From the NCBI GenBank assembly GCA_021234155.1, contig JAJEKV010000146.1, positions 1,178,001 to 1,242,000 on the forward strand: a stretch of DNA of 64,000 bases. Reading direction: 5' to 3'. Shown in pieces: positions 11,715 through 58,600 of this stretch. The stretch comes from Isoetes taiwanensis (Eukaryota > Streptophyta > Lycopodiopsida > Isoetales > Isoetaceae). The position numbers and the translations under genes are program-made. The notes below the pieces were generated by a model. That model saw only the letters and a program-made list of their open reading frames with translations, did not search any database and was not told where the DNA came from. How positions within the stretch are numbered: position 1 is the first letter of the stretch; every line of letters starts with the position of its first letter.

Positions 11715-12576
11715 ATGGCCCAGAAAACCAGAGATACTAAGGCAAAAACTGTCAAACCTGCTACACCAGAAGGGGTTACCCAGGAAACTGAGGCTCTGAA
11801 AGGATCTTCCTCCAAGGGTGGATCGCATACTGCAATAGATAAGGCTAAAGCTAAAACGCCTGCTCCAGTCTCAACTTCCGGAAGCTCTGATAACTCCTCT
11901 GATGAAGAGGAACCGGCTGCAGGGGTGGCATCAAATGGGCTGCAGATGGGTCAATCTTTTCCTTTTCCTCCAACGATTGCACAGCCAGGTATGTTAGTGC
12001 CATTAGATATGGTCTTACAGATTTTGAACCAGAATCATCTGAGGTATGATGAAATTGATGGAGAATATGATGAATAAAATGTTGGCAGCATTTGAAAGTA
12101 GGATTTCTGAGCTTCAAACTCGTCTGTTCTCTGAAAATTCCAAATCTGAAAATGGGCAGAATTTAGAAAGTGCAGTGCAGCTAGAGGATAAGATAGCAGC
12201 AGTGATAGAGAATCAGGAAAGGAAAAACAATCTGAGAATTGTGGGATTAGATGAAGTAGATGACGAAGACACATATATTGTGGTGGAGAATTTCTTGCAA
12301 GACAACCTTAAAATTCAGCCAAACATATCTGATGCTTATCGGGTTGGAAGGAAAGGCGAGAAAACTAGGCACATCATTGTAAAATTTGCCAACAAAGGGG
12401 ACTGGATGCGAGTTCTGAGACGGAGTAAAATGTTAAAGAATAAAAAAGTTTGGATTAATGAACATTTGACAAAGGAGCAGCTTGAGGACAAGAAAAAAGA
12501 GATACAAAAAGATAAAGATGCCCGAGCAAATGGTCAAAAAACATACTGGAAGAATGGTAAAGTAGTAGTTATGTAG
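11715..12576 (+). pseudogene. LINE ORF1 protein (RNA-binding chaperone), frameshifted
   Basis: Two overlapping frames (11715-12077 and 12046-12576) make one protein with a shift near 12040-12060. The N-terminus is Lys/Ser/Thr rich and disordered. The middle (MENMMNKMLAAFESRISELQ) is a likely coiled coil for trimerisation. The rest is an RRM-like domain (ERKNNLRIVGLDEVD, AYRVGRKGEKTRHIIVKF) and a C-terminal domain (KVWINEHLTKEQLEDKKKE). This is the organisation of L1-type ORF1p ('transposase 22') that coats LINE RNA. In plants most LINEs carry a zinc-knuckle gag instead, so this ORF1 is of the type best known from animals. Confidence 0.7.
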
Positions 12577-15500
12577 GAACTGGAGGCCGTCAGGTGGGCT
12601 GTATGGAATATTAATAAACTCAATATAGAAAAAGCTGTGGTTATGGAGCCTATACTAGATCAGCTAGATGCAATTTTCTTTGTAGAAACACATGAGCATG
12701 ATGAATGCTCACTGCCAGAAATAAATAGTTTCTTCTTACTTACCTCTGTATGGAATCCCAGATTCAAAAAAGGAAATAAAGGTAATGGCGGGATTGCCTG
12801 TTATGTTAGAAACAGGCATGCGAATCAGCTGAAAAAAATAAAAAAGGAGTCATAATCAATACATCTGGTTTGAAGTGCTAGGTACTGGTGAAAACAGATT
12901 ATTTCTTGATGTCTGCTATTTTGCACCCCTTGACAAGAAAGCTTACAAAAGAATGGATCTAGATTCTAGTGATCCCCTGTTTCATCTTGAGCAAGATATA
13001 ATTAGATATCAGTCGGTAGGGGAAGTGATGCTTATGGGCGACTTCAACGGAAGGACAAATAGTTTGCAAGCACGCATACTTAAAGAAGAAGGCGAAGCCC
13101 TGTGGTTTGAGGAGGCGAGTAAAGAAGAACCGCATACGCTTGGTTGGGCGAGAATATCTAAAGACGAAGGGGCTGTTACTTCTTTGGGTAGACCCCTCTT
13201 AGCGGTATGTTCTAGTTTTGATTTACGAATAGAATAGAATAGAATAGAATAGAATAGAATAGAAATTAATGTCCCTTGTGCCCTCATGCCCCTGGACTTA
13301 TATAGCATGGGCGAGCTCCCTGAAAGGGCATAAGTAATGACATAAGTAAATTCCTAGGCACTGATATTTGCACTTGTAAAGGGAGAAGTGTTGTTGACTA
13401 TTTAATATGTAATGAGGACAGTGTGCATAGAATTAAGGAATTAAAAATCTTGGATGCACAAGCAGAATCAGACCATCATCCGTTACTCGTCTCTCTTGAG
13501 ATCACATCTTCACGTACTCAAGAGAGGAAAAGATTGACAACCATGGTCATGGACTATAGAAAAGCGGATATATTTTTCAGAGTTGCTTGAGCAGCATACA
13601 GGTGCCGACACAGAATACAGGAGCACAGATGAGTGCATTGATGACAGATGCATTATTAAAGGCTTCTAAGGAGTGTTTTCAGCATAATAGAGCATGCAAA
13701 GGATTACCGTGTAATTCTTGGTATGATGTAGATTGCAAAGCCGCACGTCAGAGATATCTAGATGCATCAGAGGAAGATAAAATCTGGCAACATAAGCGTT
13801 ATAGGCAATTGGTCAGGAAGAAAAAGCGTGCATATCTTAGCCTTAGGTAGACCATGCTTTGCAATGAATGGGTACAAGACCCACGAAAATTCTGGCATAA
13901 GTTAAAAAGGAAAGCACAACCATGCAAAGACTTGCGAGGTGATCTTCTCCTTGAGCATATAGCAGCATTGTATTTTAAAAAAGAGCTTGTAAATGAAACC
14001 CATTTATCACAGGCACAGGTTGAAAACTTTTTTACAGAGGAGGATATAAGCAATGGAATATGGCACTTAGCAAATGGAAAAGCTGCTGATAACTGTGGTC
14101 TAGTGGCCGAAATGCTCAAACGGGCAGGGGAAAAATGGGTGCCTTATATTACAAAGATGTTCAATAAGATACTGGTGGAGAGATTCCCACAAACTTGGCA
14201 ATCTAATAAGGCTGTTCCAGTTCATAAAGGTGGTGATAAAGAGGTAGTGAGCAATTATAGGACTATTATGGTGAGTAATTTATGAGCTAAGATCTTTGCG
14301 AACATAGTTGAATCTAAATTGAGTACGTGGGCTGAGGTAAATGGAGTCAGAGCACATGGACAAGCTGGATTTAGACCTAAACATTCTACCATAGACCAGC
14401 TGGTTACATTGAGAGTAATTGTGGAGAGCGTCAAAGGTAAAAAGAAGCCTGTTTTTATTGCATTTATTGATTTTAAAACCGCTTTTGATACTGTGCCAAG
14501 AGGGAAGTTATGGGATAGATTGGAAGCATTGAATGTTCCAGTTACCATCAGACATGCTGTTAAAGTTTTGTATGAGTAAGTGCTATTAGAGCTTTCGTAT
14601 CCCTAGTCAGAATGTGCCAGTGGAAGAATAGCAAGCAATATTGGCGTGAAACAGGGCTGCCCATTGTCCCCCACTCTATTTGGAATTTTTATTGATGAAT
14701 TGGAAGATTGGATCGTTTTTCATGGTGGTGTTGGATCCCCGTTGTTGGCGTATGTCATTGCCATCCTTTTATATGCAGATGATGTGGCTTTGTTTGCGCG
14801 AACAAAGCTGGATTTGGAAAGGCATCTTGAGGCCTTATCAACCTTTTGCTCAAAGACAGGTATGATGGTGAACACCACGAAGACGAATTCGAAGGTTATG
14901 ATTATTGGCACAAGGAGCAAACATGATTTTACTTACAGAGACATGCCATTGGAAACCGTAACATCTTTTAAGTATTTGGGAATTATTTTTAGTAGCAATT
15001 ACTTATGGGATGAATGCATAGAGCAGCGATACAGTAATGCGCTTAAGGCGCTTTGTGCAATGCAAAAGCAATGTCATAAAATACATCTCTGGAATTGGGA
15101 TTTGAAGAAGCAGCTTTATAGAGCACTTGTACAAACAGTTATACTATATGGTTGTGAAGTATGGGCTCCAAGCTTGACGGCCAAGCTATGGAAAAAGGTA
15201 GAGAATTTGCAAAAGAAATTTTTGCGCACTGAGCTAGGGGTGAAAATGCAAACGCCATATGCGATGATGCTTGCAGAAGTGGGAATGCTGCCTCTTGAGG
15301 GAGAAGCAATGACTCAGACTGCCTCTTACTTGCTCAAGGTCAATGCATTAAGTGAAGATCGCCTTCCCAGTATAGCTAAAAGAGCATCCACGGATAAAGG
15401 TTCGTACCATGATGTAATTTGTTGGTTGCAGAAATGGAATATCAGTGTAGGTGAGTTAGTGGGCAAGAGAGATAGAATACGAGATCTAGTTTGTCATAAG

Positions 15501-15930
15501 TTTCAAATTAAAACCTGGAGTGCGGTCCAAGAGGTAAAGATGTCTTTCTACCAGCAATCTATTAACCCGTCTTTACAGGTAGTAAAATACTTGTCAGAGA
15601 ATATACCTATCTCAAATAGGCATTTGCTTGCTCGTATGCGTTTGAGCTCACACTATTTGAAAATTGAGACTGGAAGATGGCAGTGGATAGAAAGGGTTGA
15701 CCGTATATGTGAATTGTGTCCTGATGGTATGATTGAAGATGAAGCGCACACCCTGTTATACTGTTAAGTGTTATGAAGACATTAGACTCCAATACTCTAT
15801 GCAAGAAAGTTCATTAGTTGAGCTCTTAGGACTCTCAACAAAATACTTGTGTTCTTATATAGATGAGGTGCTACAAAAAAGATGTATTTGCTTGAAAAAA
15901 GAAGTAAAAAATATGGAGAGTGAGGAGTAG
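12577..15930 (+). pseudogene. LINE ORF2: AP endonuclease and reverse transcriptase, degenerate
   Basis: The frames are broken but in order. Endonuclease: VRWAVWNINKLN and FVETHEH at 12585-12700, MGDFNGRTNSL near 13035, GRSVVDYL and SDHHPLLVSLEI at 13380-13505. Reverse transcriptase: AVPVHKGGDKEVVSNYR near 14215, AGFRPKHSTIDQL near 14365, FIDFKTAFDTVPRGKLW near 14465, KQGCPLSPTLFGIFIDELED at 14649, YADDVALFARTKLDLERHLE near 14770, then thumb and connection sequence to a stop at 15767 with further homologous reading to about 15930. The uninterrupted 373-codon piece 14646-15767 is the best preserved. A TGA at about 14283, other shifts and the microsatellite at 13230 disable it. The style (QGCPLSPTLFGIFIDEL) is that of non-L1 LINEs. 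Confidence 0.8.
13225..13263. repeat. (GAATA)n microsatellite inside the LINE endonuclease
   Basis: GAATAGAATAGAATAGAAT repeated; it interrupts the endonuclease reading frame. Confidence 0.95.
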
Positions 15931-30533: not shown

Positions 30534-30858
30534 CCCTGTCGACTCTTGGTTCCCCCCTTTTTTTCCTTTTTCTTATGATTTCTGATTTTTCTGGTTTTTC
30601 GATTCTGCTGCCTCTGACGACTGATGGGACCCCTTACCCCTGATTAGATCCTTGCAGGGGACTCAGGGTACGGGCCTGCCTCTTTTCATTGCCTCAGCAG
30701 ATTTTTCATTCCTTTCCAATCATTCTTGCTTTCCTTTTTCCCTTTTTCGGATCTTCCGCTCCCCCCTTCTTCCCCCCCCTCAAAGATCCTTTTTCCTGTT
30801 CTTTATCCTTCTTTTCAGTCGGTTCTTGTCTCTGATCCCTTCCTTGTCCGTTTCCGCC

Positions 30859-32877
30859 ATGAGAACCAAGGAGTTGACAAACAAACCAGCCATGGGAGGC
30901 TCTTCATCCTCTGCAAGAATACCCTATGAATATAAAGACACAGATCCCATTTTGATTATTCAAAGCTGGGACCAAATCTTTGTTTTAGATGATAAGAAGG
31001 ATCAAGCTTGGATTAAGATGAAAGAACTCAAGGCTGCCTTCGACATCATCAGAGAACAGCAAGAAGCCGCATCAAACTGCATGGGAATACAAAAAGAAGG
31101 GCAGATTATGGTGTGTAATCTCGAAATGCAAAGGCTCGAAAATCAGTACAAAGAAGGCAAAGCCAATGACCGTGACTTGGCTTGGCAGATGCTCCAGAAA
31201 ATCCAGGAAATGGACATACTTCTGTACCAGCTGATAAGGGTAAAAACAGGTCACTCGAAAGAAGATTGTTGCAGCTTAAAAAATCAGATATTTAGAAGAT
31301 CGATGACGGAAATGTTACAGACAGCAAAGAATCTAGTAGAAGAACTTGAGGATCTTGGATGGAAATCAAAAGCCTCTTTCCGGTTAGTGAAAATCTGGGA
31401 GGAGGCAGATGATCATGTTATAGAAAGCTTCCGAAAAGGCTTCAAGAGAAGATTCCCTTCCTTTGCCGCCGAGACTTTGAAAGAAGTTGAGATGGATTAC
31501 AAAACATACCAACTCCCGCTTCACACTCCTACCAAGTGCGGAATTGCTGACAGTAATGGTTACTTTCACCCGACGGACTGTGCTAATTGCGACTGCCATA
31601 ACTGTACCAGCATCAAGGAGCAAAACATGGACAAAAATAAAACGAAAGTCTCCAAGCATTCTCTGAAGTCCTCAGTTCCAATTATGGGGAAGTATGACAA
31701 AATGAACGGTAACTCCTACAAGAACGCTCTACTCAATTCTTTGAATTCTGTTAATATTGCTACTGATCCAGGAAATGTAGGTAAAGTAACCAATAAGGAT
31801 GAGGGCATTCTTGACCTGTGTAATATTGCTGATAACTCGGCCAAGATCAGATATACCAATCATGGGATTCTCACCCATTTCCCCCAAAAATGCCCCCCCT
31901 TAAGCACTGTGAAATACTGGATTACCAAGTCTCTTCTGGTTCCTATTCTTTCTATCCTCAAGCTGGATGATAAGACTTTTCAAATTATCTGTAAAGAAGA
32001 GAAGAGTGTCCCTCAAATCCTCATCAGAAAGATCTCTACTATCTCAGGATATCCAGTCTACATTATGAAATGGGATCCTTTCTATATTCCAGGGGACTTC
32101 TCTACAATTGCTACTACCACCTGGATATCTTGCACAAATTTGCCTATGGGATGCTGGACTGCCTCCCATCTTAGAACCATTGCTAGTAGCTTAGGGGAAA
32201 TCATTCAGATCTCTATCCCCCAGACTAGTTTCCCCTCTGTTTGTATCCAGAAAAAGATCTATTCTAACTGGGAGGACTGCATTCCATGCAAAATTCCCAA
32301 CAGAGGCATTTTTAATCTTAACATTTCCTACTCTAAAATGCCTCTAGCTAATTTCTCTCCTCCTCCTAAAGAGAATAAGGAGACAAAGTTGCAAAAGGAG
32401 GTGGAAACAAATCATGGCAGGCAAGTCTGGAGACCTAAATCCAAGATCATGGAGAATAATCATGTCAACAAAGCTGATGGTATTATCAGCAAAGAGGTTA
32501 TTCGAAGAGAAGCCAACCAAACCAGGGTGGAATATAATGTATGTAAAGATCACCATGGTATGTTTTTTCCTGATAAAGGCATTATATTTCAATTTCCTTC
32601 CAAGGTGGTTATCAGGGTTGACCCTACTAATATGAGCATCTCGACTTTGGATCTTGGTATTTATGATAACTTTGGTTCTTGTGAAGAGATCAGGAAGGAA
32701 GACTCAGAGGAAGACTCTGACATACAAGTCATTAATAAGACTTCCAACCTGGAAGATGTGACTTGGTCAATAGTCAACAACAGAAGAAAAAGGGGAAAGA
32801 AAAGCCCTAAAGATTTTACCATGGGACCTCTAAGAAGATCCCCAAGAAAGACCCTCTCTAATGGATTTAAGTCTTAA
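30859..32877 (+). CDS. LINE ORF1, gag-like nucleic-acid-binding protein
   Basis: 672 codons from the ATG at 30859, which has a good context (CCGCCATGA). The open frame extends upstream to about 30652 but only with a TTG and a pyrimidine-rich stretch that looks like 5' UTR. The N-terminal half is helical and charged (residues about 40-230). A Cys/His cluster FHPTDCANCDCHNC is at about residue 240. A DUF4283-like RRM domain lies at about residues 330-450: YPVYIMKWDPFYIPGDF, then TWISCTNLPMGCWTASHLRT and IASSLGEI. DUF4283 marks the gag of plant L1-type LINEs and binds RNA. The C-terminus is basic (NRRKRGKKS). The ORF is intact and overlaps the start of ORF2 by 17 bp in another frame. Confidence 0.8.
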   Translation: MRTKELTNKPAMGGSSSSARIPYEYKDTDPILIIQSWDQIFVLDDKKDQAWIKMKELKAAFDIIREQQEAASNCMGIQKEGQIMVCNLEMQRLENQYKEGKANDRDLAWQMLQKIQEMDILLYQLIRVKTGHSKEDCCSLKNQIFRRSMTEMLQTAKNLVEELEDLGWKSKASFRLVKIWEEADDHVIESFRKGFKRRFPSFAAETLKEVEMDYKTYQLPLHTPTKCGIADSNGYFHPTDCANCDCHNCTSIKEQNMDKNKTKVSKHSLKSSVPIMGKYDKMNGNSYKNALLNSLNSVNIATDPGNVGKVTNKDEGILDLCNIADNSAKIRYTNHGILTHFPQKCPPLSTVKYWITKSLLVPILSILKLDDKTFQIICKEEKSVPQILIRKISTISGYPVYIMKWDPFYIPGDFSTIATTTWISCTNLPMGCWTASHLRTIASSLGEIIQISIPQTSFPSVCIQKKIYSNWEDCIPCKIPNRGIFNLNISYSKMPLANFSPPPKENKETKLQKEVETNHGRQVWRPKSKIMENNHVNKADGIISKEVIRREANQTRVEYNVCKDHHGMFFPDKGIIFQFPSKVVIRVDPTNMSISTLDLGIYDNFGSCEEIRKEDSEEDSDIQVINKTSNLEDVTWSIVNNRRKRGKKSPKDFTMGPLRRSPRKTLSNGFKS

Positions 32878-35800
32878 AGGCATTACTTGGAACATCCAAG
32901 GCATCAATTCGAATAGCAAGAGAGGTAGATTAAAAGTTTGCCTAAGCTCCATGAATCTAGATTTTATTTTTTTCCAGGAGCATAAAATTCATGATGATAA
33001 TATTAACCATGTCATCAGAGATGTTCTGCCTGTCAACTTTCAGCATTGGTCTCTCAAAGCCAACAACACTTCTGCAGGCATAACCATTGCTTGGAACAAC
33101 AGACTCAACATGGAGGATATTCAGATGGTTAATGACAATAGTAGGAGATGGCAGATTATCCATGGAAAAGTTGGAATGAAAAGAATTGTCTTCATTAATG
33201 TTTATGCATACCACCAGCCCCCTGATAGAATTGGCCTTTGGGAGGTAATTAATAGAAGTCTTGAGAGAATTCCTTATGATGATTGCATTTTAGCAGGTGA
33301 TTTCAATATGGTTACTCATAGCTATATGAGGAGCGCCAACTTCAGACCTTTGACTGATAATGAATTCTCAAGCTGGAATGCGCTCCTTAACTCTCACCAC
33401 CTCTCTTTGGCCAGAATTATTCCCCACTCCTATAGTTGGAATGATCACAGAGCTCAGCCTGTTTGCTGCCTCCATGACAGGTTCTATCTCAGTGAATCCC
33501 TTTGGAATAACAGCACTAGGGTCACTAACCTCACCAACTACACTCTTTCTGACCATTTCCCCCAGCTTATTAGCATTTGTGGTAATAGTCCTCAGAGAAA
33601 GAGGAATTCTTATTTTAAATTAAACACTAACCTTTTGGATCAGGATGACTTTTTGCATAACCTTCAACGGATCATTTCTCAGGAGGTTAAGCCTAGGGGG
33701 AACAGAGGTTGGATGGATTGGTGGGTCAAAGTCTCTAAGAGGATCAAAAATTGGCTCAAGACTTGGGGGAAAGATATCCATAGAAGTAATACTGCCCATC
33801 TGCAGGACCTCAGAACTCAGTTAGACTCGGCTAGTGGACAACAAAAGGATGAGATCAAGATCCTAATCGAAAGAGAAGAAATAAGAATCGCCAGGGGATG
33901 GAAGATCAAAGCAAAGGTGAAGGAGTTAAAGGAAGATGAGAGAAGCAATTCAAAGTACTTCTTCATTAAGGCTAAGGGAAGAGTGAAAAGAAATCATATC
34001 TATAGCATTCTATGGGAAGGCAACAATATTGATAATGACACACAGCTCAAATGTGCTGCCAAAACTCACTTTTCCAGAATCATGGGAACTGAGGAAAACA
34101 TAAATAGAGAAGATATTGAAAATTTTGTGTCTATCCAGCAGAAGGTTACTGAGCACATGAATGACACTCTTTCTAGGCCCTTCACCTGGGGGGAAATGTT
34201 GAAAGTTCTGCAGGAGATGGAGAATGGCGGGACCCGGGACTGATGGCCTCGGTGAGTTCTTCAAGAAGTCTTGGGACATATTGGGCATGGACATTGTCTC
34301 TTTGGCCAATGAATTCCTGATCACCAAGCAACTTGACAGCAGGATCAACACAAGTTTAATTGCTCTTATCCCTAAGATGGAGCTCCCTACTACTTTCTCT
34401 GATTACAGACCAATATCTCTGACCAATGTGGTGTATAAGTTAATTTCAGGTACTATGGCTGCTCGTCTCAAACCTATCCTGGAGGAAGTTATCAGTAACA
34501 CTCAAAGTGCTTATCTAAGAGGAAGGTATATTCTTGACAATGTTGTTTCTTTGCATCTTTGGGTATCTCACGGGCCAAAGATTCCAACCACCAATTGGCC
34601 TCCTCAAGCTAGACATCACAAAAGCTTTTGATCTTGTAAGTTGGGCTTTTCTTTCTTTGGTCTTTGTAGGAAACTTGGATTCTCCGAGGAGACAATCTCA
34701 ATCTTCAAGGCATCCTTAAAAATTCTAGATCTGCTTTGTTCTCATTAATGGTGAATGTAGCCCTTTTTTTGACATCAAAAGGGGGGTCAAACAGGGATGC
34801 CCTCTTGCTCCTTTCCTTTTTTTGATTGTAATGGAAGGACTAAATAGCAACCTTAAAAGAGCAAAGGATCTTCACCTAATCAAGGGTCTCAGGCTTCCCT
34901 CTCAGGAGGATGATGAGATTCTTAATGTCCATTTTGCAGATGACACTTTCTTATTTCTACATTTGGAGGACCTATCCATCCAGAATACTCTGGCCACTTT
35001 GGATGAATTTGGCAAGTGCTCGGGTTGTAGAATCAATCCTGTCAAGACCAAGTTGATTTCTAGACATCAAGAGGAGGGTGAGCTTGCTGCAGCAAGACTG
35101 GGTTGTATGTATCTCTCTCCTAATACTAAAACTAAAATTCTAGGTATCCCCTTTGCTATTAGAGTTAATGCTTGTGATCTTTGGGAGGATTTAATTGATA
35201 AATTTTATAAAAAAGTTGACTCCCTTAATTCCAAGTTTCTTTCCAAAAATGGGAGAGCTATTCTGGCAAACTCGGTCATCTCTTCCTCCCAGGTCTATCA
35301 ATCCTCCATCATTATGGCCCCTAAGAAAGTCTTGACAAAAATGCAGAGCATCATTGGAAGGTTTATAGCAGGTGGATCAAGCAGAAGATGTTGGATTCCT
35401 ATTTCTATGGAAGAATGCTGCAAGCACAAAAGAATTGGGGGTCTGGGGATCATAAACATTGAGAAGCAGGCCACTGCTTTGGCTGCAAAGTACTTCTTTA
35501 GGGCATGTAATAACCAGATTAATCACCCTGTGAGTACTCTCATCTCCTATTACATTAAGAAATGCCACCCCTTTGGCTGGAGAAATCTAAATATGCAGCT
35601 TCCTCATAGTATCTACTTCGACTTTACTATCCCTACCACTATGCCTTTAATTATTAAAAAGTGGATTAGGGCTTGGTTGAAGGTAAGAGGTATGTATACT
35701 TGGAAAGAAGGACTTTCACAGGACCAGCCTATATTTTGGAGCCCCTCTCTGATTCTGGATGACCCTAACATTTGTCTTGCCACTAACTTTCCTAAGTTAG

Positions 35801-36294
35801 CCAAGCAATGGACTCAACGGGGAGTCATCTACATAAGGGAGATTATTGATGATTTTGTTTACCAAGATTCCAATCTTGCAGATCTAGGAGATGACTCTAG
35901 GCAGCTTTTCAATAGTATTACTCAGAGATTGGCTTATGGAGAATGGCATGATACTAATGTTTTCTGGCATATTAATGGGTTTTGTGGTTATAAAGTCAGC
36001 TTAGCTTACAGGTACCTCAATAGAGACCAAGATGTAACCATCCATTCGAAATGGAACATCGAACCTGACAGGGTTCTCAGAAACCTGAAATTTATGTGGA
36101 AGAGCCCAATTCATCCTAAGATCAAAGCTTTTATGTGGCAACTTTGGCATAAAGCCCTTGCCACGAACAGAAAGAGATGGAGGCTTAATATGTCTAACTC
36201 TGATATCTGTGTTAGATGCTTGCAGGATCAAGAAGATGAAGCACACCTATTTAAAGAGTGCCTATGGGCAGAATGGGTTTTGGAGCTCATTTGA
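32861..36294 (+). pseudogene. LINE ORF2: endonuclease, reverse transcriptase, zf-RVT; frameshifted
   Basis: It starts at ATG 32861 inside the end of ORF1. The first 460 codons are open and hold the L1-type apurinic endonuclease: GITWNIQGINSNSKRGRL, FFQEHKIHD, LAGDFNMVTHS, SYSWNDHRAQPVC and LSDHFPQL. The frame then breaks near 34230, 34620 and 34750. Reverse transcriptase motifs follow: INTSLIALIPKME, FSDYRPISLTNVVYKLIS, SAYLRGRYILDNVV, LKLDITKAFDLVSWAFL, GVKQGCPLAPFLF and FADDTFLF (the YADD box as FADD). The open part 34822-36294 ends with a zf-RVT-like segment, FMWKSPIHPKIKAFMWQLWH and DICVRCLQDQEDEAHLFKEC. It would make the target nick and the cDNA, but the shifts inactivate this copy. Confidence 0.88.
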
Positions 36295-48899: not shown

Positions 48900-50880
48900 G
48901 GCCTTTTAGATGTTCTACGTGGGGGCTTGTACTTATTGTACACAATTATCTTATATATCGGGTGGTCTAACCCGAGGTTGTGTTTGTTGATTTACCCATT
49001 TGGGGTTCATCATTTTGTTCCTCTCTTCACTCATTTTGGGATTCATCAGTTTGTTTCCCCATGGGTCATTGTACTTCACCACTTCACCACTTCACTTCGG
49101 ATGTTGATATTTGTGCATAAAGACCTTTCCCTAGAATAATCATACATACTGAAATCCACAATGATGCATACCTGTAGGTCTTAACACTGCTAATTATGGC
49201 CTGCAGCAATCAACCGGCATGCAGCTTGGGAATAATTTCTGGGAGAAGAAGTAAAGGGTTGATATAAAGTTTTGAAGGAAAGGTAGATGTACAATCTGCG
49301 CCCTAGAGGACTCACGACTTAGACGTCTTCAGCATTTTGGAAAAAAAACATTTAATAATAAATTTAGTAGCAAAATAAAGCCTGTATTCAGTTGTATGGA
49401 GGAGAGAATTTGAGGTTGGAATGATGGCAAGCCGTCTAGTAGGAAAAAGAAACCCAAAAAATATGTCCTTACTAGAACATGCTCTTCACATCCTCTGTTC
49501 TTCTTGGAGCAGAGCCATGCTGGCAACGTCGCAACTCGAGTTTCCCCAGAGCAAAACATTCCATAAACCAGTGAAGTAGGGCCTCCAATCCACAAGTTCA
49601 GAGAAGTGGTGATCAAAAGCAGGAAATGCAGGAGACAGAAGCGGCAAGAAACAAAAAGAAAAAGCACAATGCATGATTAAACCTTGGCTCTTAATCTCGA
49701 CCGTTGATTTAGGGCCAATATAATAGCAAGAATTGGATCACTCAACTCAGCCACTCAGTCGTTGGATGCGATACAATTATATATTTCTTTTAAAGTTTAC
49801 CGGTGATAATCTTGCTATTTTTTTCAATGTAAATCGTACTGTATAAATATCAAGCGTTGTATATATTCGACATCCTCATGTCATCCCACACCCCCATTCC
49901 ATGATGCACATTTTTTCCATGGGGCATCAACGATGTCCCTATTTAGACTCGATTTATATTTCATACAATAAACCCTTAAACAAATAAATCATACGCTTCA
50001 AAATCCCTAGTTCTGGATCTTTGCCACGAAACTCGTTGCCTGGAACCTTGCCACGAATCCGGTTTGACACCTCTGCCAAGCTTTGGTTTTGGCGTGGTTT
50101 ACCGGCCACTCTAGAATTGCAGACGAAAAACCTTGAAGCCACAATATGGCATCTGGGGAGCCGATTTTTTCTTTAATTTTGGTGATGGAGATGGCTCCCT
50201 TATATTCTTGCAACAGCTTCTACCTTCTAGGTTTAAACAAAGCAGAGCTTAGGCGAACTGACAGGCTTAGTCGAGTTTTTTATTTTGGAAGGATTCAAGG
50301 TTTCTCTGTATTTTTAGTTCAACTGTTTCTTTGCAAGATTCAAGGATCATCTGTTTTTTTGGGCAGATTCAAGGAAGCATCGACTTCAACTAGAAAAGAA
50401 GGCCTTGAAAAGATAAAAAATTCCTCTACTGGCATAGCTAGTTCTTTCAAATACATCGCCGGAGCTATGAGTTCTTAGCTTAAGCCCTGCCATTTCTTTT
50501 TTGTTCTTCAATAGCTTTTTTTTTTTTTAAGAGTCCTCTTTATCAGCCCAGCTTTTATCCTCTTGCCATACTTTTTCTCGTCTTTCTTCCTCCATAGCCG
50601 TTTTCGTATTTGCGATTTTGTTTTGTTTCGTGTAGATTTTCTTCTGCGTTTTTTGCCGTCTTATGTGTTTTCCGCCATACTTTTCTTGCCTTTCTTGCTT
50701 CAGATTTGCTAGCTCAACAAGGCAGCCAGAGGTTTATTCAAGATTCTTCTGTTGTCTGTTGTTAACCAGTTAAATCTGTCACCGCGGAATGGCCGACCCA
50801 ACATACCATTCTGCAATGGAATTGTCTGCTACATGGCAGCACAACATTAATACAATGACAAAAAAGGCGATCCTAATGCC
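48900..50880. other. Gene-poor stretch left of the recombinase element
   Basis: The ORF 50146-50478 (110 codons) contains two RIQGFSVFL/KIQGSSVFL-type internal repeats but no known domain. Nothing else recognised. Confidence 0.4.
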
Positions 50881-51010
50881 ATATTGTATGGGGGAAGGGC
50901 AATTGGGACTTGATTCCAGTTTCCAGGTGGGGTCCTGCGACCGGCGGTAGCTGGGAGCGGGTCACTTAGAAACCGGAATCAAGGACCAATTGCCCTTCCC
51001 CCACAATATA
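50881..51010. repeat. 130 bp foldback at the left side of the recombinase gene
   Basis: The arm ATATTGTATGGGGGAAGGGC with TTGATTCCAGTTTCC (50881-50925) pairs with GAAACCGGAATCAAG and CCAATTGCCCTTCCCCCACA (50969-51010). The loop region 50925-50966 holds the GC-rich motif GACCGGCGGTAGCTGGGAGC that recurs at 55013 and, inverted, at 54906. Confidence 0.85.
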
Positions 51011-51134
51011 GAAATAGGGGAGATTTTTTTTTTCTCCTCTTTCTTTCTTCGCATTTTTTTCCCTCTCTCTGCGCCATGCATGCATCAAGACCCAGGGCAG
51101 ACCTCCACGAGATTCGTCGAGCAAAGCTGGCAGG

Positions 51135-53840
51135 ATGAAGGCGCTTGCTCGAAAGAAGCGTTTTGAAGGCATTTTGGCCTTTTTTCTTGGTTTGATGGAG
51201 ATTTTTGTAGCAGTTGGGCTTTTTGTTGCTGATTCTTGTTGCTTAGTTGTATCAGAGACTAGTATTACCGGAGTTGGAGCGCAAAAGACAAATCCGCAAG
51301 GTATTTGTCAAGTTTTTATCTATTTTTGTTGATTTTTGCATTCTTTAACTGCTTTTTTTTTTCGTTTGACAGGTTTATGGAAGGAGATATTGTCGATTCC
51401 GTCGAGTTTTGCTTCGGGGAGATGTTCTATAGTTAGTTCAGAGAATATAGGTATAGATTTAACTGTTTTTTGGTTGGAGATTCTACTGTGTTTTGTGCAT
51501 GCAAGTTTTTTATTGATTATATGGTCTTGCTTTGTTACAGATTCTTCTGGATGCTCGAGGCTTGTTGCAGATGGAGGTTATACTTTGGAACAGCTCGGTT
51601 TTGGAGGTAAGCTTTCATGCATTTGGCTATAAATTAGTTGTTAGATCCAATTTTTTCACAATGCTGTTGCATATAGTTGTGGAGTTGTAAATCTTGGAGC
51701 AGAGGAGGTTCATGCGTCTTCATGTGTATTAGGTAAGTCTGCATGTATAGTAGGCTAGTCTGCATGCGTACTAAGTAAGTTTTAAATTAGTAGTAATCTA
51801 GAGTAGTCTGTTGTTGAATTAGGTAGAGTATATTCTTTTAAAAATATACTTAATGTTTTGCAGATGCATCTGGAGTGCCAGATGTTATACCTGGAGTGGT
51901 AGATGATATATTTGGAATAGTGAATGTGTCTTCGGAGCGGCAGTTAAATGGATATGAGTCAGGTAATTTGTTTATTTATTGTTTACTTTTAGATAGTTTT
52001 TAATTATTATGTTTTGTATTTAGGTGTTGGCTGTCCATCATTTAGTCTTGATAGCCCTTTTCAGACTACTGCTAAAGATGACAGTGTAGGCTTAAGTTGT
52101 GAGGCGGTAGTTGAGGGTTGTTTTGAGGGTAGCAACAATTTGATTACGAGTGAGGGTCTTGATAGTTTGATTGTAGATAGTATGATTATAGATGAAGGTG
52201 GTTCAAGTTTGATTACAGATGAAATAAGACGTGATGGCAGTATGAATATGACTGATTTAGTGGTTGATCGGCGTCATGGAAAGAAGCCATTGAAGCTTGG
52301 TGGTTTTGTTGACCTGGATCCGGAGCTTGTTACTAGGGTGACTAATGCTTGCGAGCCCTGTGGAAACAAAGGACAAATGGGTCAAGGGAAGGTTTGATGC
52401 GTGGCGGATGCATCTTAGGAAACCAATTGATGTTAAAATTGAAGACCTGGAATTGGACATGCTTGCTGAGTATCTGGAGGACTTTATGCTTTGTGTGCGT
52501 CGAATCGATGGCAAGCCATATCCACCAGACACGTAAGCATCATTATTAGTTTATTATTGTCTTTATTTTACTATTAATATTATTATTATTATTAGTTTAT
52601 TATTGCTTTCTTTTATTTATTAGTTTGATTTCATTTATTCTAAGATGTTTTCTGTTGTGCAGGTTGTAGAATCTATTTCGTGGTTTCAATAGAATCTTAC
52701 GCCGAGTGCAGGATGCTAGGATCATGAATACTCGACAAGAAGAGAAAGCAATTGACATTTGCGATGGAGGAATCTACTGCGGGCGGTTTTACTTCGAAGA
52801 GGAAGAAGTCAGACATATGGAGCTGGGAAGACCAATCTAAAATTCTGCTACATCTGGCACATCAAGTGACATAACTTGGGGATCCAAAAGAGGTTTGCAT
52901 TCTATTGTATGTCATGTTTTTTAATTCGTGGGGGCTAGGAATTATGTAAGGCCAGAGATTTTCAGTTTTTCATTGGAAAGGACTTTGTGAATCAATATCT
53001 AGAGTATTGTGAGACCATCAGTAAGAACTGGCGTGGCGGGATCAACAAGTGCAAACCTGAGGATTTAGGGAGCCCGTCAGATGCTATGAAGCTGATGTCG
53101 TAGAATGCTGGAGGCATTTAGAGTACCGCCTATCAAAGTATGAGGTCTATGATAAGTATGGGGGCAGGTTCATCTTCTTGGAGGCAATTAATCGCCCCAG
53201 AAAAGATGTATGTACGAATCTTATGCCATCAAAAACCATGTCTACTTGGCTGAAAGACATGGTTGAGGTTTGCGAGATAGATGGAAATTTCACCAACAAA
53301 AGCTGCAGGAGTACTGCAATTACGCAGATGTTAGTGTCAGGTGTGCCTATTGAACTCGGCATGAAAATTACGGGTCATACAAATCCTGAATCGTATCAGC
53401 GTTATGGTCAGAGTAGAGTTGTAGCACGAGCTTCTGCTATGGACGTTCTGAATTCTGGTAAGATATATGGAGAGTCTTTTCAGAATAATGTTAAAAACTT
53501 GAATGCTGGATTGTGTGGGAATCTGGAGAAGGTGGCTAGTTTATGTTCTTCATTTGGGAATCCTCTGCGTGATATCACGAACAGCTTGGGTGCTTCAAAT
53601 TCTACGCAAGCTGTTACTCCAGGTTCTAGTAGTCGAGTGCCGGTTGAAATAGATGATTCGTACATGAACGATTTGGATCTGGTGTTAAAACAAAAGCCTG
53701 ATTTGAAGAAATACTTCTCTGACCCTATAGAAAATGCTGCTGCATCTGGAAGCGTGAGTATTTCAGGTAATAAAATCGAGAATATTCTGATTCATGTTGG
53801 AAGTTTAAGTGAAGCTGGCTCTCTTATAAAATCTCTGTAA
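51135..53840 (+). pseudogene. Crypton/ZMYM-KIAA1958-type tyrosine recombinase, spliced, decayed
   Basis: Exons with consistent phase-1 junctions: 51135-51300, 51373-51450, 51541-51606, 51685-51732, 51864-51962, 52024-52532, then 52663 onward. The internal small exons are multiples of 3, which supports real splicing. The N-terminus is acidic and Ser-rich. The core starts KDKWVKGRFDAWRMHLRKP and VRRIDGKPYPPDT, the SAM-like/N-terminal part of DUF3504. Then come NLFRGFNRILRRVQDARIMN, an IRGARNYV-type stretch carrying the first catalytic Arg, SKNWRGGINK, MPSKTMSTWLKDM, and TNKSCRSTAITQMLVSGVP with TGHTNPESYQRYG, which supplies RxxR-like, His and Tyr positions. The usual NHSxR His is Lys here. A TAG at 52667-52669, a shift near 52350 and another near 53068 break it. 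Recombinases of this fold cut and rejoin DNA through a tyrosine. Confidence 0.75.
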
Positions 53841-53989
53841 GTAGTTGAATTGCTTAGTTTCTTTATAATTTTCGATTTTAATTGCTTATGGTTTGCAGGA
53901 AATGAGTCTGCACCTGCAATGTGGAAAGTGGAATGTCTTCTAATCTGGAATCTGCAGTTAAATATGTACATTTGAATGTTTGAATTGTG

Positions 53990-54310
53990 TTAATCAATTG
54001 TCTTGAACCGTGTTAATCAATTGTGATAACTTTGAGTCTTGTGAAAATATTGATAATAAACTCTGGTAATTTTGATATATTGAAACTATAATGTTTACTG
54101 TGGTAACTTTGAGTACTAATGTAACTTTGATAGAGCGATAACTTTGATGTATTAAATTTAGAATGTGCATTGTGGTAACTCTGAGTACTGAAAACTTGAG
54201 TCTTATAAAAACTTTGAGCTGGTCTTTAACTGGAAAAGTGAAACTGAAAAACTCACTTTGAGTTGGTCTTTACAATTGAAAAACTTTGAATTGTCTTATA
54301 AAAAATCTGA
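53990..54310. repeat. AACTTTGAG-type short direct repeats
   Basis: (G/T)(A/G)TAACTTTGA(G/T)T variants recur roughly every 30-50 bp, some with GTCTTTAA or GTCTTATAAAAA. The array lies between the recombinase stop and the right inverted end. Confidence 0.6.
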
Positions 54311-54758
54311 ATTGGTCTTTAAAGCTGAACAAGTGCTTGAAAAAAATTTACAAGTGAAAAAACATGGAGTGACCGGTTCAACCTGTCACCCAGAATCAGG
54401 GCACCCAACTGCTTTTCTGGGTTATTGGCAGTGACACGTGTCAACGTAGAAATGCACCAACGAATAAAAAATCGACCCTATTTCTATATTGTTGCTCAAA
54501 AAGAGACGACTGGGTTCATCCAGATGGGTGAAATGCTGCATGTGACCATTTAGCTGAAGAGCCCAACGCCACAGCCAGATTCAAATTTGAACTTCGATGT
54601 GGATAAAATTCCGCGTCGGAGAAAAAATGGCGACGAAATTTCGATTTTCCATTCAAATTTTGGTAGTTATGAGTCTCTTTTATTTTTTTGTTTAGATCCG
54701 AGCATATTCTAATATGTGCCGAAATTTGCACTTCAGCCACTTACGCCTTACACCCACA

Positions 54759-54879
54759 CAACAAGGAAACTGGGGAGTTCATTCAGCACCCGGAATGGAA
54801 AACGGCGGGCTTGATTCCGCTCAGCAGGTCAGAAACATGTAATTTGAAGCAAAATTGTATCTCCCCAGTTTCCTTGTTG
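54759..54879 (+). mobile_element. MITE copy 1, 121 bp
   Basis: Ends CAACAAGGAAACTGGGGAG and CTCCCCAGTTTCCTTGTTG are perfect 19 bp inverted repeats. The body includes CGGCGGGCTTGATTCCGCTC. No recognised transposase. Confidence 0.8.
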
Positions 54880-54893
54880 TGGCGGCCTGGAAC

Positions 54894-55057
54894 TGGGTCG
54901 CAGATTCCAAGACCCGCTCCCGGCTCCCGCCGGTCATGGGACCCCCTGGAATCAGCTCACGGGACCCCCTGGAATCAGCTCCCCAGATTCCATGCTGATT
55001 TCAGGGGATCCCGTGACCGGCGGGAGCCGGGAGCGGGTCCTAGAATCTGCGACCCAA
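54894..55057. repeat. GC-rich palindrome between the two MITEs
   Basis: TGGGTCGCAGATTCCAAGAC and CCGCTCCCGGCTCCCGCCGG read inward from the left and, inverted, from the right. The centre has a 22 bp direct duplication (GGGACCCCCTGGAATCAGCT). The arm motif is the one in the loop at 50925-50966. Confidence 0.85.
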
Positions 55058-55175
55058 CAAGGAAACTGGGGAGATACAATTTTGCTTCAAATTACCTGTT
55101 TCTGACCTGCTGAGCGGAATCAAGCCCGCCGTTTTCCATTCCGGATGCTGAATGAACTCCCCAATTTCCTTGTTG
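55055..55175 (-). mobile_element. MITE copy 2, 121 bp, inverted to copy 1
   Basis: Same length and ends as copy 1 in opposite orientation, with a few substitutions (for example CCCCAATTTCC for CCCCAGTTTCC). Confidence 0.8.
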
Positions 55176-55179
55176 TGAT

Positions 55180-55306
55180 GTAGAATGGAATGGGGGAAGC
55201 CATTCTTGCTTCCCCCTGACCTGCAGAATCCGGGAGCGCCATGTAGGCGCGACTGGATTCTGCAGGTCAGGGGGAAGCAAGAATGGCTGACTCCATTCCG
55301 TTCTAC
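55180..55306. repeat. 127 bp foldback
   Basis: GTAGAATGGAATGGGGGAAG, CCATTCTTGCTTCCCCCTGA and CCTGCAGAATCC pair with their reverse complement at 55247-55306; GAGCGCC/GGCGCG lies at the apex. It resembles a microRNA-like or MITE hairpin. Confidence 0.85.
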
Positions 55307-55626
55307 GACGTCAAGGTAAGCTTCTAACCGGATTCTACAAGTTTGCTGAACCCATTTGCCATTCTTGAGAAGAATGAATCAAGAAAATGACGGAATGCTG
55401 GTCCACTTACCTTGACGTGTGGGTGTAAGGCGTAAGTGGCTGAAGTGCAAATTTCGGCACATATTAGAATATGCTCGGATCCAAACAAAAAACAAAAGAG
55501 ACTCGTAACTACCAAAATTTGAATAGAAAATCGGAATTTCGTCGCCATTTTTTTCTGCGACGCGGAATTTTATCCACATCGAAGTTCAAATTCGAATCTG
55601 GCTGTGGCGTTGGGCTCTTCAGCTAA

Positions 55627-58600
55627 ATGGCCACATGCAGCATTTCACCCATCTGGATGAACCTCCAGTCGTCTCTTTTTGGGCAACAAAATCCAGGTCT
55701 GGTTCTATCATGTACGCGTGTTCTTTGTGGGAGGAATTATATTTCACTAAGGCAATATCAATGCAAGAAGTCATCGTGGGCAATAAACAGAATAAAATGG
55801 AATTGTTCCTTTGACGAGAGGTTAAATGGAGTTCAAGGGTCTGGCGTTGGAAAAAGTGCAGCAGAGGAGACCTTAGAGATGCTTGAATGGCCAAGGCTTC
55901 GTTCTGCAGTTGCAAATTTTGGTAGCACAGAAATTGGAAAAGCACGCATTCGGGTATTCTGCCTTTCATATACATTGTCCGTTACAATGGACTACTCGTT
56001 GAATTGGTTAATTCTTGTTGCAGAGTCTCACCTTACCTGACAGTATCCAGGAAAGTGAAAAACTAATTGCTGAAACACGTGCAGCTATAGAGTTTGATTC
56101 CCTTTATGGAGGAGTTCTAGATCTTGGATCCCTTCAAACTGAGATGGCACTTATTGTTTCAATTTCATGTTGGGCAACTTTGTCGGATAGGAAGGAGCGC
56201 TAAAGCCTTGTTTATCGTAATGTTATCAGGTAAAATCTGGTTTGGAGAGAGCTGAAAAAGGAATAGTATTAACTGCCAAGGAGGCATTCGCTGTATCAGC
56301 TGTGCTAGAAGTAAGTCTGTCGTTGAGGAGATCACTTCGATCATGTTTCCAAGAAAACAAAGAAAAGCAGGGTATTCTTCAGCCCATAACTGATATGGTG
56401 AGTGTGCTAACTGACAGCATTTTAAGGTACATAATGAAGATGCAAGCATTGCTGCGAATTTCTTAAATCTAAACCGAGGATGTTGTTTTGGGTTCATATC
56501 TCTAGATGGAAAATCAATTGAATTTAGAGTGGATCTAGACGTTGAAAAGCTTTATTTCATGTTGTTTCTTATGTTCTATTTTTCCTATGAGTATCATTAT
56601 TTATTTGTATAAAAAGCTATCTAGACCTAAATTCCTCATTTTGCAATGACATCCAAGAAGTGTCATTAATCACATTTCTTCGTTCTGTAGGCTGTTCTCA
56701 TTGGCACTACATATGATGATATTATAAGGTTGATTAGGAGTGTCGTGGATGAGGATGGTTTTGTGAAAGATAATGCGGTATTTCTCTTACAATTTATTTA
56801 AAGTGTCTCTTTCCGGCCATTAGTTATCAATTTCAAAGAAACTAGATTGCTATGTTGACACTGGTTTAGTAATTATGGAAGCTTTTGCTTGGCAGAGTTC
56901 GGAATTAAAAAGAGCTCGCGCAGAGGCGCAATCTATAGAAAGGAAGGTATTCGTAATGTGCTTCTACGTATTTGCTAAATGTGAGGCCTATTTCTTTACT
57001 AATGGGGAATAATATATCCTAAAAAGTTAGTCATGCGCATGTTTTGGACACATGAAGAAATTTGAATGATAAAATGATGACTAGGAACATTACGATAACA
57101 TGATGACCGGGAACATTCATACATATACCATGCAGGGTTTTGGAGATCTCAATAAAATCACATATAATAAGTTTTGACAAAACATGATAGACCTTCCACA
57201 ATTAAGGCAGAGTTGGTTGTGGCAGACCTAAAAGCTGCTTCAAATAGATTTTTAACTACATGCAGAAACCTAGAAAGGCCCAGAAACTTGTATGCAAGGT
57301 GAAGAAGAGCCTCCATGGTTCGGAACATCCCAATAAGGTTCATGTCAATCATCAACTTCCCATGACTATGATAAGAAGTTGCTTATAACAGGGATCAATG
57401 TGAGTCAGTCAAACAGTCTCTGATCCAGACGTTGGAGTCTTAGCAGGGTCTACTTCTAAAGAAAAGTTTCTCTCTGATCTGGTTTAGAAATATAAGATGC
57501 AGATTGGGGATTTCTTAAAGCATAACTTCCTTCCAAGGTTTATGTAGAATCCAGGGTGGAAGGAGCAAAGCATTCATTAGCGTAGGAAAGGTGATACTGT
57601 TACTGAATTCATTATCACCTCTCGATTGGAATTGGATTTAGATCTGTCCAGAGTATGTTTGCCTCTTGCACATAAGAAATCAACGTGTTTCCCAAAGTTA
57701 ACTAGCAAGTACCTTTCAGACTGGGTTGCTTACAGCTTTACTTCTTTCACATCCATAGGATCAACTAAAGAATATGAAATAGATGCGAAGGAAGCAAGAC
57801 ACTCAAGTTAGGCACTCTGGTTTGACCTAATATGGAATTCGTTTACTCTGTTCAGTTTATATGGAGTATGCCTATACAGTACAGCTAGGTTCTGTACATA
57901 GCACACAAGATTGAATGACCCAGACATCATATTGGAAATAGTTGTACTTTAGTCTGGAAATGTGTGTGCTAAGACATTATTTCTATGCCATCTTTTTTTT
58001 TTGTTTGGAGTAACTAAGCAATATTGCTCACAGCACATTATTGTGTGTTATGATTTCAGCTACAGGAGGTCCTGAAAAATATAATCCGAGAAAAAGTTGG
58101 ATCTGAAGCAGCTGGCCAGGTCATTTTGATAAAAATACGTACAAGTATTTACATTGTTTCTTGAAAGGATGTAAGCAAAAATGCATTTCTTATCATAGGT
58201 TGCAAATATAAATGGAAGATTATGCATTTCAATGGCAGTAGATAATGCCCAGGACGTACCTGGCTTATTTTTGCAGAGGTCAGTGCATCTCTAGTGTAGT
58301 CAATCTAAAGCAGAACCTGAATATTTAAACTGAATAATTAGCGAGTGCCTTATCAAGTATTTGGGGGCTTGGTAGTCAGCAGTTGTGTGGTTGCTAGTTC
58401 ATGCAACGTCGGGCACACGTTTACTAGTTATTTCTTTATAAAGGAAGTTGCGACTATCATGGTATAACATGGTAACAGTTTACAGCTCAGAGAGCGGGTT
58501 GATGGCATACATTGAGCCATTAAGTGCAGTTCCTTTGAATAACGCGTTAGGGGAGGCTCAAACTGCTGTGATTCAAGCAGAGTATAGTGTACTTTCCACA

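Follow-up and report, generated by a model that had tools for sequence, protein, structure and literature searches.

A probable Crypton-like DNA transposon family with a terminal hairpin and a spliced tyrosine recombinase gene in the lycophyte Isoetes taiwanensis

Does a spliced tyrosine recombinase (YR) gene in the nuclear genome of a land plant belong to a mobile element and, if it does, how might that element move? This question is raised by a locus in a 64,000-nucleotide stretch of the genome of the lycophyte Isoetes taiwanensis (assembly GCA_021234155.1, contig JAJEKV010000146.1, positions 1,178,001 to 1,242,000 of the forward strand), referred to here, at its full length, as the window; all positions are those of the window. 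The locus is a decayed, dead copy of a family of YR DNA transposons. It probably represents (with a likelihood of roughly three in four) a DNA transposon mobilized through site-specific recombination by its own tyrosine recombinase, similar to the Cryptons but with an unusual attachment site. Its most unusual part is a terminal hairpin accompanied by an inverted copy of the opposite end, both absent from the initial annotation, which was made from the sequence alone. The central proposal of that annotation, that the nucleus of a land plant harbors a mobile element with a spliced YR gene, is supported by family matches, similarity to the Pfam family PF00589, and empty insertion sites. To our knowledge, YR DNA elements have hardly been described from plants.

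Searches of the I. taiwanensis assembly (1,658,258,908 bases in 1110 contigs), whose counts are lower bounds, revealed at least 168 protein-level matches to the C-terminal recombinase frame (positions 53061-53837) and at least 74 DNA match rows for positions 51003-54492. Several of the protein matches are free of stop codons, with open frames of 338 to 465 amino acids (aa), and several DNA copies cover the full query. A single-copy host gene is ruled out by this copy number and by the differing flanks, and contamination is unlikely because the copies are spread over many contigs, tens of which are megabases long. The initial annotation had the locus right in placing the element at 51003-54492, but its borders had to be corrected to those given in Table 1. 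The repeat at 51003, which it took for the left end, is internal: the ten loci compared have sequence in common to its left, which rules it out as the true terminus, and the 113-bp left-terminal hairpin had been missed. Both ends of the element, the left one reading TATGGGGG, are common to other copies, including six short ones of 967-1256 bp, and the outer flanks differ; the exact boundaries follow a rule set by the empty sites of other copies.

The target of insertion can be read from 13 clean-ended copies, a set that leaves out L035, with its altered right end, L040, with damage at its left end, and the loci without both ends. The two bases before the left-terminal TAT are TG in 10 of these copies, TA in two others, and CG in the remaining one, so that the left core reads TGT in 10. 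At the right end, all 13 have TG, with T as the next base in every copy but L038, and the left flank varies. When the flanks of 12 copies were joined and used to search the genome, with 16 stretches aligned, empty sites spanning the junction were found for six copies. The counterparts of L036 reach only some tens of bases past the junction, and those of L039 and L042 have identities of 81-85%. The cleanest empty site, that of L038, extends over 225 bp and was reported as 100% identical, the sole base differing from the joined query being the third core base. Without the element, the sequence is ATG-AAACCC; in the occupied site, the left junction is ATG-TATGGGGG and the right junction is CTATATTG-AAACCC. 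Therefore, the third base on the left belongs to the element, and insertion occurred at one TG that afterwards stands on both sides. Full-length and ∼1-kb copies alike have entered at TG, most often as TGT, and nothing beyond this dinucleotide is repeated from the target.

The peptides quoted in the initial annotation are present on the forward strand at 52342-53837, as the coding core of a gene that is broken in the window copy, its catalytic frame being split by stop codons and frame changes at ∼52340-53110. The gene is spliced, as annotated, and six introns can be placed, where the initial annotation had at least six, all in phase 1; in a local reading five are in that phase and the last one (52533-52662) is in phase 2. 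Amino acid identity of the exon 1 translation is 80-82% within subfamily A (46% in the damaged L042), 58-60% with subfamily A', and 35-38% with subfamily B, and this conservation into subfamily B supports the start at 51135. The catalytic frame is open in some relatives, such as L005, which has an open frame of 420 aa and to which the window exon 7 is 88% identical. The C-terminal 259-aa frame of the window matches PF00589 (Phage_integrase) with an E value of 1.8e-5 and 25 bits, slightly below the cut-off of 27.1. This cut-off is passed by two of four open relatives in the same genome (L005, 9.4e-8, and L030, 1.8e-7), with L011 and L029 falling below it, and all nine open family proteins match PF00589 at E values up to 1, the best being 6e-8. 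Residues Arg115, Lys241, Arg244, His267, and Tyr276 (L005 numbering) are invariant in all nine aligned proteins, which thus contain the tyrosine recombinase set of Arg I, (H/K)xxR, His, and Tyr; we take these residues to be catalytic from the motif. Upstream of the YR domain, the only part compared with Pfam, the frame 51993-52394, gave no match. The ratio of nonsynonymous to synonymous substitutions is 0.05-0.06 between A and A' and 0.15, 0.23, 0.31, and 0.52 in close pairs; in the remaining 30 of the 36 pairs, silent sites are saturated and the nonsynonymous differences (pN) are 0.11-0.21. The low ratios are signs of purifying selection on the recombinase.

The initial annotation assigned this protein to the DUF3504/ZMYM/KIAA1958 group, which the profile comparison contradicts: PF12012 (DUF3504) is matched by none of the nine family proteins at E values up to 1. 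Elsewhere in the genome, DUF3504 scores above its cut-off at only two loci, L001 (C31:89002-92481) and L002 (C606:41185-44682). These two loci represent a second, different YR family, and both of their DUF3504 matches contain stop codons. In an hhalign comparison, the L002 fragment aligned with the profile of the window family at an E value of 3.4e-6 (probability 87.7%, 26% identity over 94 columns), which ties the family loosely to the Crypton-type YRs. In those frames of this DNA element that were scanned (not every frame), Pfam recognized no gene other than the YR. A YR-only DNA element, the short shared crossover core, and the hhalign link to a DUF3504-matching locus together make a Crypton affinity plausible. 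A pattern search for relatives in viral contigs and in genome contigs confirmed none of the 55 and 79 pattern matches, respectively.

The left terminus of the element is an imperfect palindrome whose predicted DNA fold was not equaled by any of 200 shuffled sequences (z = -8.2 for the top strand and -10.2 for the bottom strand; -11.3 and -11.5, respectively, for L060). Just beyond it, the right-terminal 16-mer recurs in inverted orientation. This 16-mer reads CCCTATTTCTATATTG in subfamily A, CCCTATTTCAATATTG in A', CCCTGTTTCCATATTG in B, and CCCAAATACCATATTG in C, variants that differ in 1-4 of the 16 bases and that each equal the internal copy of their own element. Both could be read in 17 copies, and in 15 of these they are identical, the two others being L064 and L025x, the latter with a collapsed hairpin. 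The 16-mers were located by subfamily patterns allowing two changes, and the comparison covers 17 of 20 copies, leaving out L066, L035, and L024x; a right end could not be located for L024x, nor a left end for L029x. The arms of the stem match each other at 0.86-0.94 within an element versus a mean of 0.57 between the lettered groups (seven elements), a mean that omits the pairs inside group A (A versus A', 0.63-0.69; L067 versus L068, 0.80-0.83). Across the subfamilies, the right end, the internal copy, and the stem change their letters in concert, and both the internal copy and the pairing within the stem persist.

Three irregularities of the palindrome recur at set positions. The outer arm beside the TG has two more nucleotides than the internal copy. 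A tandem G.A mismatch lies 17-18 nucleotides from TAT in 16 of the 18 scorable copies (out of 20; L066 and L025x were left out of the arm scoring) and is lost in L038 and L023x. The tip, CCTGC-GA-CCGGC-GGTA-GCTGG-GA-GCGGG in the window, has the consensus CCCGC-GA-CCGGC-GNNA-GCCGG-GA-GCGGG. With up to three mismatches allowed, this tip motif was found at 525 sites in the genome, versus none for the reversed-pattern control, and at the left end of 16 of the 21 loci examined; the arms are still readable in L038 and L023x, two loci that lack it. The exact tip with GNNA occurs at 170 sites genome-wide, and with the tetraloop left free, among the matches listed all exact sites have GNNA except six (five ATTA and one GTTT); the group C copy L028x also has ATTA. 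GNNA loops closed by a C-G pair are unusually stable in DNA. Among the first 100 of the 525 tips and 119 YR places (with neighboring fragments mostly merged), nine hairpin-YR pairs lie less than 6 kb apart, compared with 0.09 expected, and in all nine the hairpin is upstream of the YR on the same strand. An unrelated miniature inverted-repeat transposable element as the source of the hairpin is ruled out, since the hairpin occurs both in copies that have most of the gene and in copies that lack it, and it varies with the subfamily.

Two other explanations of these repeats have to be considered. The hairpin, located just upstream of the gene, could serve replication, silencing, or transcription rather than recombination; this is unlikely, given that the hairpin is terminal, that it is kept in copies without most of the gene, and that the internal copy mirrors both its outer arm and the right end. 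Alternatively, the matching inverted repeats at 51003-51032 and 54463-54492, together with the short direct TG, might mark an ordinary transposon of the DDE type with terminal inverted repeats (TIRs) and a TG duplication that has captured a YR gene. We regard such an origin as extremely improbable. The left repeat is internal rather than terminal, TG is all that the two flanks share in place of a fixed-length duplication next to terminal inverted repeats, the frames scanned gave no Pfam match to a DDE family, and the part of the element under apparent selection is the YR.

Movement by the element's own recombinase, the preferred reading, would start with excision as a circle or an otherwise joined-end intermediate; the retained introns make a spliced-RNA intermediate an unlikely route. 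The joined ends would carry the complete attachment site, consisting of the 16 bp of the right end, the TG, and the hairpin arm. Because the right-end 16 bp lengthen the stem once the ends are joined, the full structure is expected to exist only in the joined state. The YR could then exchange strands at the TG between the circle and the target, with the hairpin and the inverted copy forming part of the site that it reads, either as a duplicate inverted duplex site or as a folded strand. End-to-end junctions do occur in the genome: the junction motif was found at 12 sites with up to three mismatches, versus none for the reversed-pattern control. Four of these sites lie in tandem copies joined via one TG (C24:47636-86018 and C32:101317-103427), and at the other eight, the matched letters suggest that this right end adjoins a left end of another kind. 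In the region C1026:2060431-2090378, an A-type right end precedes the different left end TATAGGGGAATGG at four sites spaced 9-12 kb apart.

An internal region complementary to the joined ends is also a feature of the DIRS1-like retroelements, along with insertion at a 3-bp junction without target duplication (PMC3266345). As far as the features given there go, the Isoetes element resembles them in both respects, its internal copy being two nucleotides shorter than the junction. The family could accordingly consist of YR-only relics of a DIRS-like retroelement, with joined ends copied from the internal complementary region. That derivation is very unlikely: the 3.6-kb element keeps its introns, no reverse transcriptase or RNase H was found among the Pfam matches of those of its frames that were scanned (not every frame), and the internal copy adjoins the left end and is 2 nucleotides short of the junction. 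DIRS elements, furthermore, have inverted repeats at both ends, whereas the Isoetes element has introns and a hairpin at one end only.

A more specific version of the mechanism is tentative. In this version, the joined ends are recombined by the YR as a single folded strand, the stem is the attachment site, and the 2-nucleotide asymmetry beside the TG and the G.A steps choose the strand. The plan of the joined ends (16 bp, two extra nucleotides, ∼18 bp, a 2x2 G.A loop, a long stem, a bulge of 2-3 nucleotides, another 2x2 G.A loop, 5 bp, and the tetraloop) is nearly equal in groups A, A', B, C, and D, the tetraloop is mostly GNNA with varying middle letters, the outer G.A step is widespread, as noted above, and the top strand is the more stable one in all seven joined-end constructs. 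Conserved mismatches of a kind that would matter only in a folded strand argue for such a substrate, although two copies show that their loss occurs. However, the difference between the strands is just 0.8-1.5 kcal/mol in four of the seven constructs, the bottom strand has a slightly more extreme z value at the left ends of the window copy and L060, and the predicted fold splits the two extra nucleotides in B. In D, the right end was replaced by the internal copy, so that the first 16 pairs are there by construction, and the conservation of the tip is partly explained by shared ancestry. A single-strand substrate is a prediction from folding and conservation. We know of no folded attachment site in any eukaryote. 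A eukaryotic family that recombines via a folded strand in the manner of integron cassettes, with the extra bases, the G.A steps, and the GNNA tip read by a Crypton-type recombinase, is possible but doubtful; under that scheme, this would be a YR-only element with DIRS-like copying of its ends, perhaps near the source of the DIRS retroelements.

Several observations weigh against transposition by the element's own YR. The mechanism is deduced from sequence, and no circle, transcript, or protein has been seen. The HxxR position is occupied by lysine rather than histidine in all nine proteins, structure prediction for the window frame alone failed (mean predicted local distance difference test score, pLDDT, 32), and a profile search of the Protein Data Bank (PDB) with the family gave no match below an E value of 0.5. 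No empty site was found for the other six of the 12 copies tested, and the tip motif is missing from the left end of 5 of the 21 loci (L038, L066, L025x, L023x, and L029x). A 2-bp TG duplication produced by another mechanism would, in addition, leave a nearly identical footprint. The left core does differ from the right one in 3 of the 13 clean-ended copies (TA, TA, and CG), but later mutation can account for the deviating cores: all five empty sites of one TA copy have TG, and those of the other comprise two with TG and two with TA.

Table 1. Features of the transposon copy and its immediate neighbors in the window
Feature	Coordinates	Strand	Basis or remark
Whole element, 3603 bp	50887..54489	+	Flanked by two TG cores, 50885-50886 and 54490-54491
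Left-terminal imperfect palindrome (hairpin), 113 bp	50890..51002	+	2x2 G.A mismatch in stem
Internal inverted copy of right terminus, CAATATAGAAATAGGG	51004..51019	+	Beyond the hairpin
Exon 1 (MKALARKKRF...)	51135..51300	+	Translation conserved in other copies
Exon 2	51373..51450	+	GT/AG borders; A and A' copies have conserved translations
Exon 3	51541..51606	+	GT/AG borders; inferred
Exon 4, frame damaged in window copy	51677..51732	+	GT/AG borders; inferred
Exon 5	51864..51962	+	GT/AG borders; inferred
Exon 6, ends DKWVKGRFDAWRM...KPYPPDT, one frame change	52024..52532	+	Peptides and borders
Exon 7, with the YR catalytic domain; interrupted by stop codons and frame changes, open at 53061-53837 toward the C terminus	52663..53840	+	PF00589
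Right terminus CCCTATTTCTATATTG	54476..54491	+	Last two bases are the TG core
Left neighbor, like right end of group C relative	50749..50884	+	80% over 104 bp (50749-50850) to L030
Right neighbor: nested palindromes, related hairpin tip, inverted ends CAACAAGGAAACTGGGG / CCCCAGTTTCCTTGTTG	54493..55692	.	

To its left, the element adjoins sequence similar to the right terminus of a group C relative, with positions 50851-50884 sharing, in a comparison by eye, the end ...CCATATTG, so the window element sits at the terminus of another element. By eye, L065 also sits at the apparent right end of another family. The palindromes to the right are perhaps gene-less elements in opposite orientations; a further palindrome with 61-nucleotide arms and different letters is found at 55180-55306. 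Just to the right of these palindromes, at 55800-58000, lie frames that by eye resemble what we take to be a MutS2-like gene. Elsewhere in the window, the long open frames at 30625-36291 and 12043-15764 resemble, also by eye, the endonuclease and reverse transcriptase of long interspersed nuclear elements (LINEs).

No comparable element stood out in the open-licence literature, judged by titles and the beginnings of abstracts. The available text of a Crypton survey covers fungi, oomycetes, a diatom, and animals and does not list land plants (PMC3212892), and the word "Crypton" does not occur in the main text of the I. taiwanensis genome paper (PMC8566536). One table cell of a plant atlas gives 535 "Crypton" entries (PMC8729191), so automated Crypton calls in plants exist. 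Since the copies described here provide natural joined ends and empty sites, the recombinase, its attachment site, and its strand preference are directly testable. A composite of a Crypton and a long terminal repeat (LTR) element has been suggested as the origin of YR retroelements (PMC4157794), and the combination of a Crypton-like gene with DIRS-like complementarity of the ends bears on that origin.

Compared with known systems, the coding part of the element is Crypton-like, and its ends recall the internal complementary regions of DIRS elements and, if folded single-stranded, the attC sites of integrons. With the Cryptons (CryptonF, S, A, and I) it shares a DNA element having the YR as the main gene and a short shared crossover sequence; the termini of CryptonS are mostly TATGG (PMC3212892), which is also the left end of the Isoetes element. 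In contrast to the Cryptons, described in the same survey as lacking TIRs or long direct repeats and having 4- to 6-bp terminal direct repeats, the Isoetes element has a hairpin at one terminus, a copy of the other end in inverted orientation, and a core of 2-3 bp, and its proteins have Lys in place of His in HxxR and do not match DUF3504. The TEC elements, known from ciliates only, are named alongside Crypton as DNA YR elements (PMC4157794), and the likeness to them lies in this class naming alone. The attC sites of integrons, which are acted upon by IntI, keep structure over letters, with extrahelical bases that serve strand choice (PMC2727003). The Isoetes family likewise combines a YR with an imperfect palindrome whose structure persists while its letters change and that has unpaired bases at set places. 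It differs in being a eukaryotic transposon with its own YR, for which the use of a folded strand is a tentative proposal, and no attI or cassette array was seen. The combination found in Isoetes resembles both the Cryptons and the bacterial integrons and matches neither.

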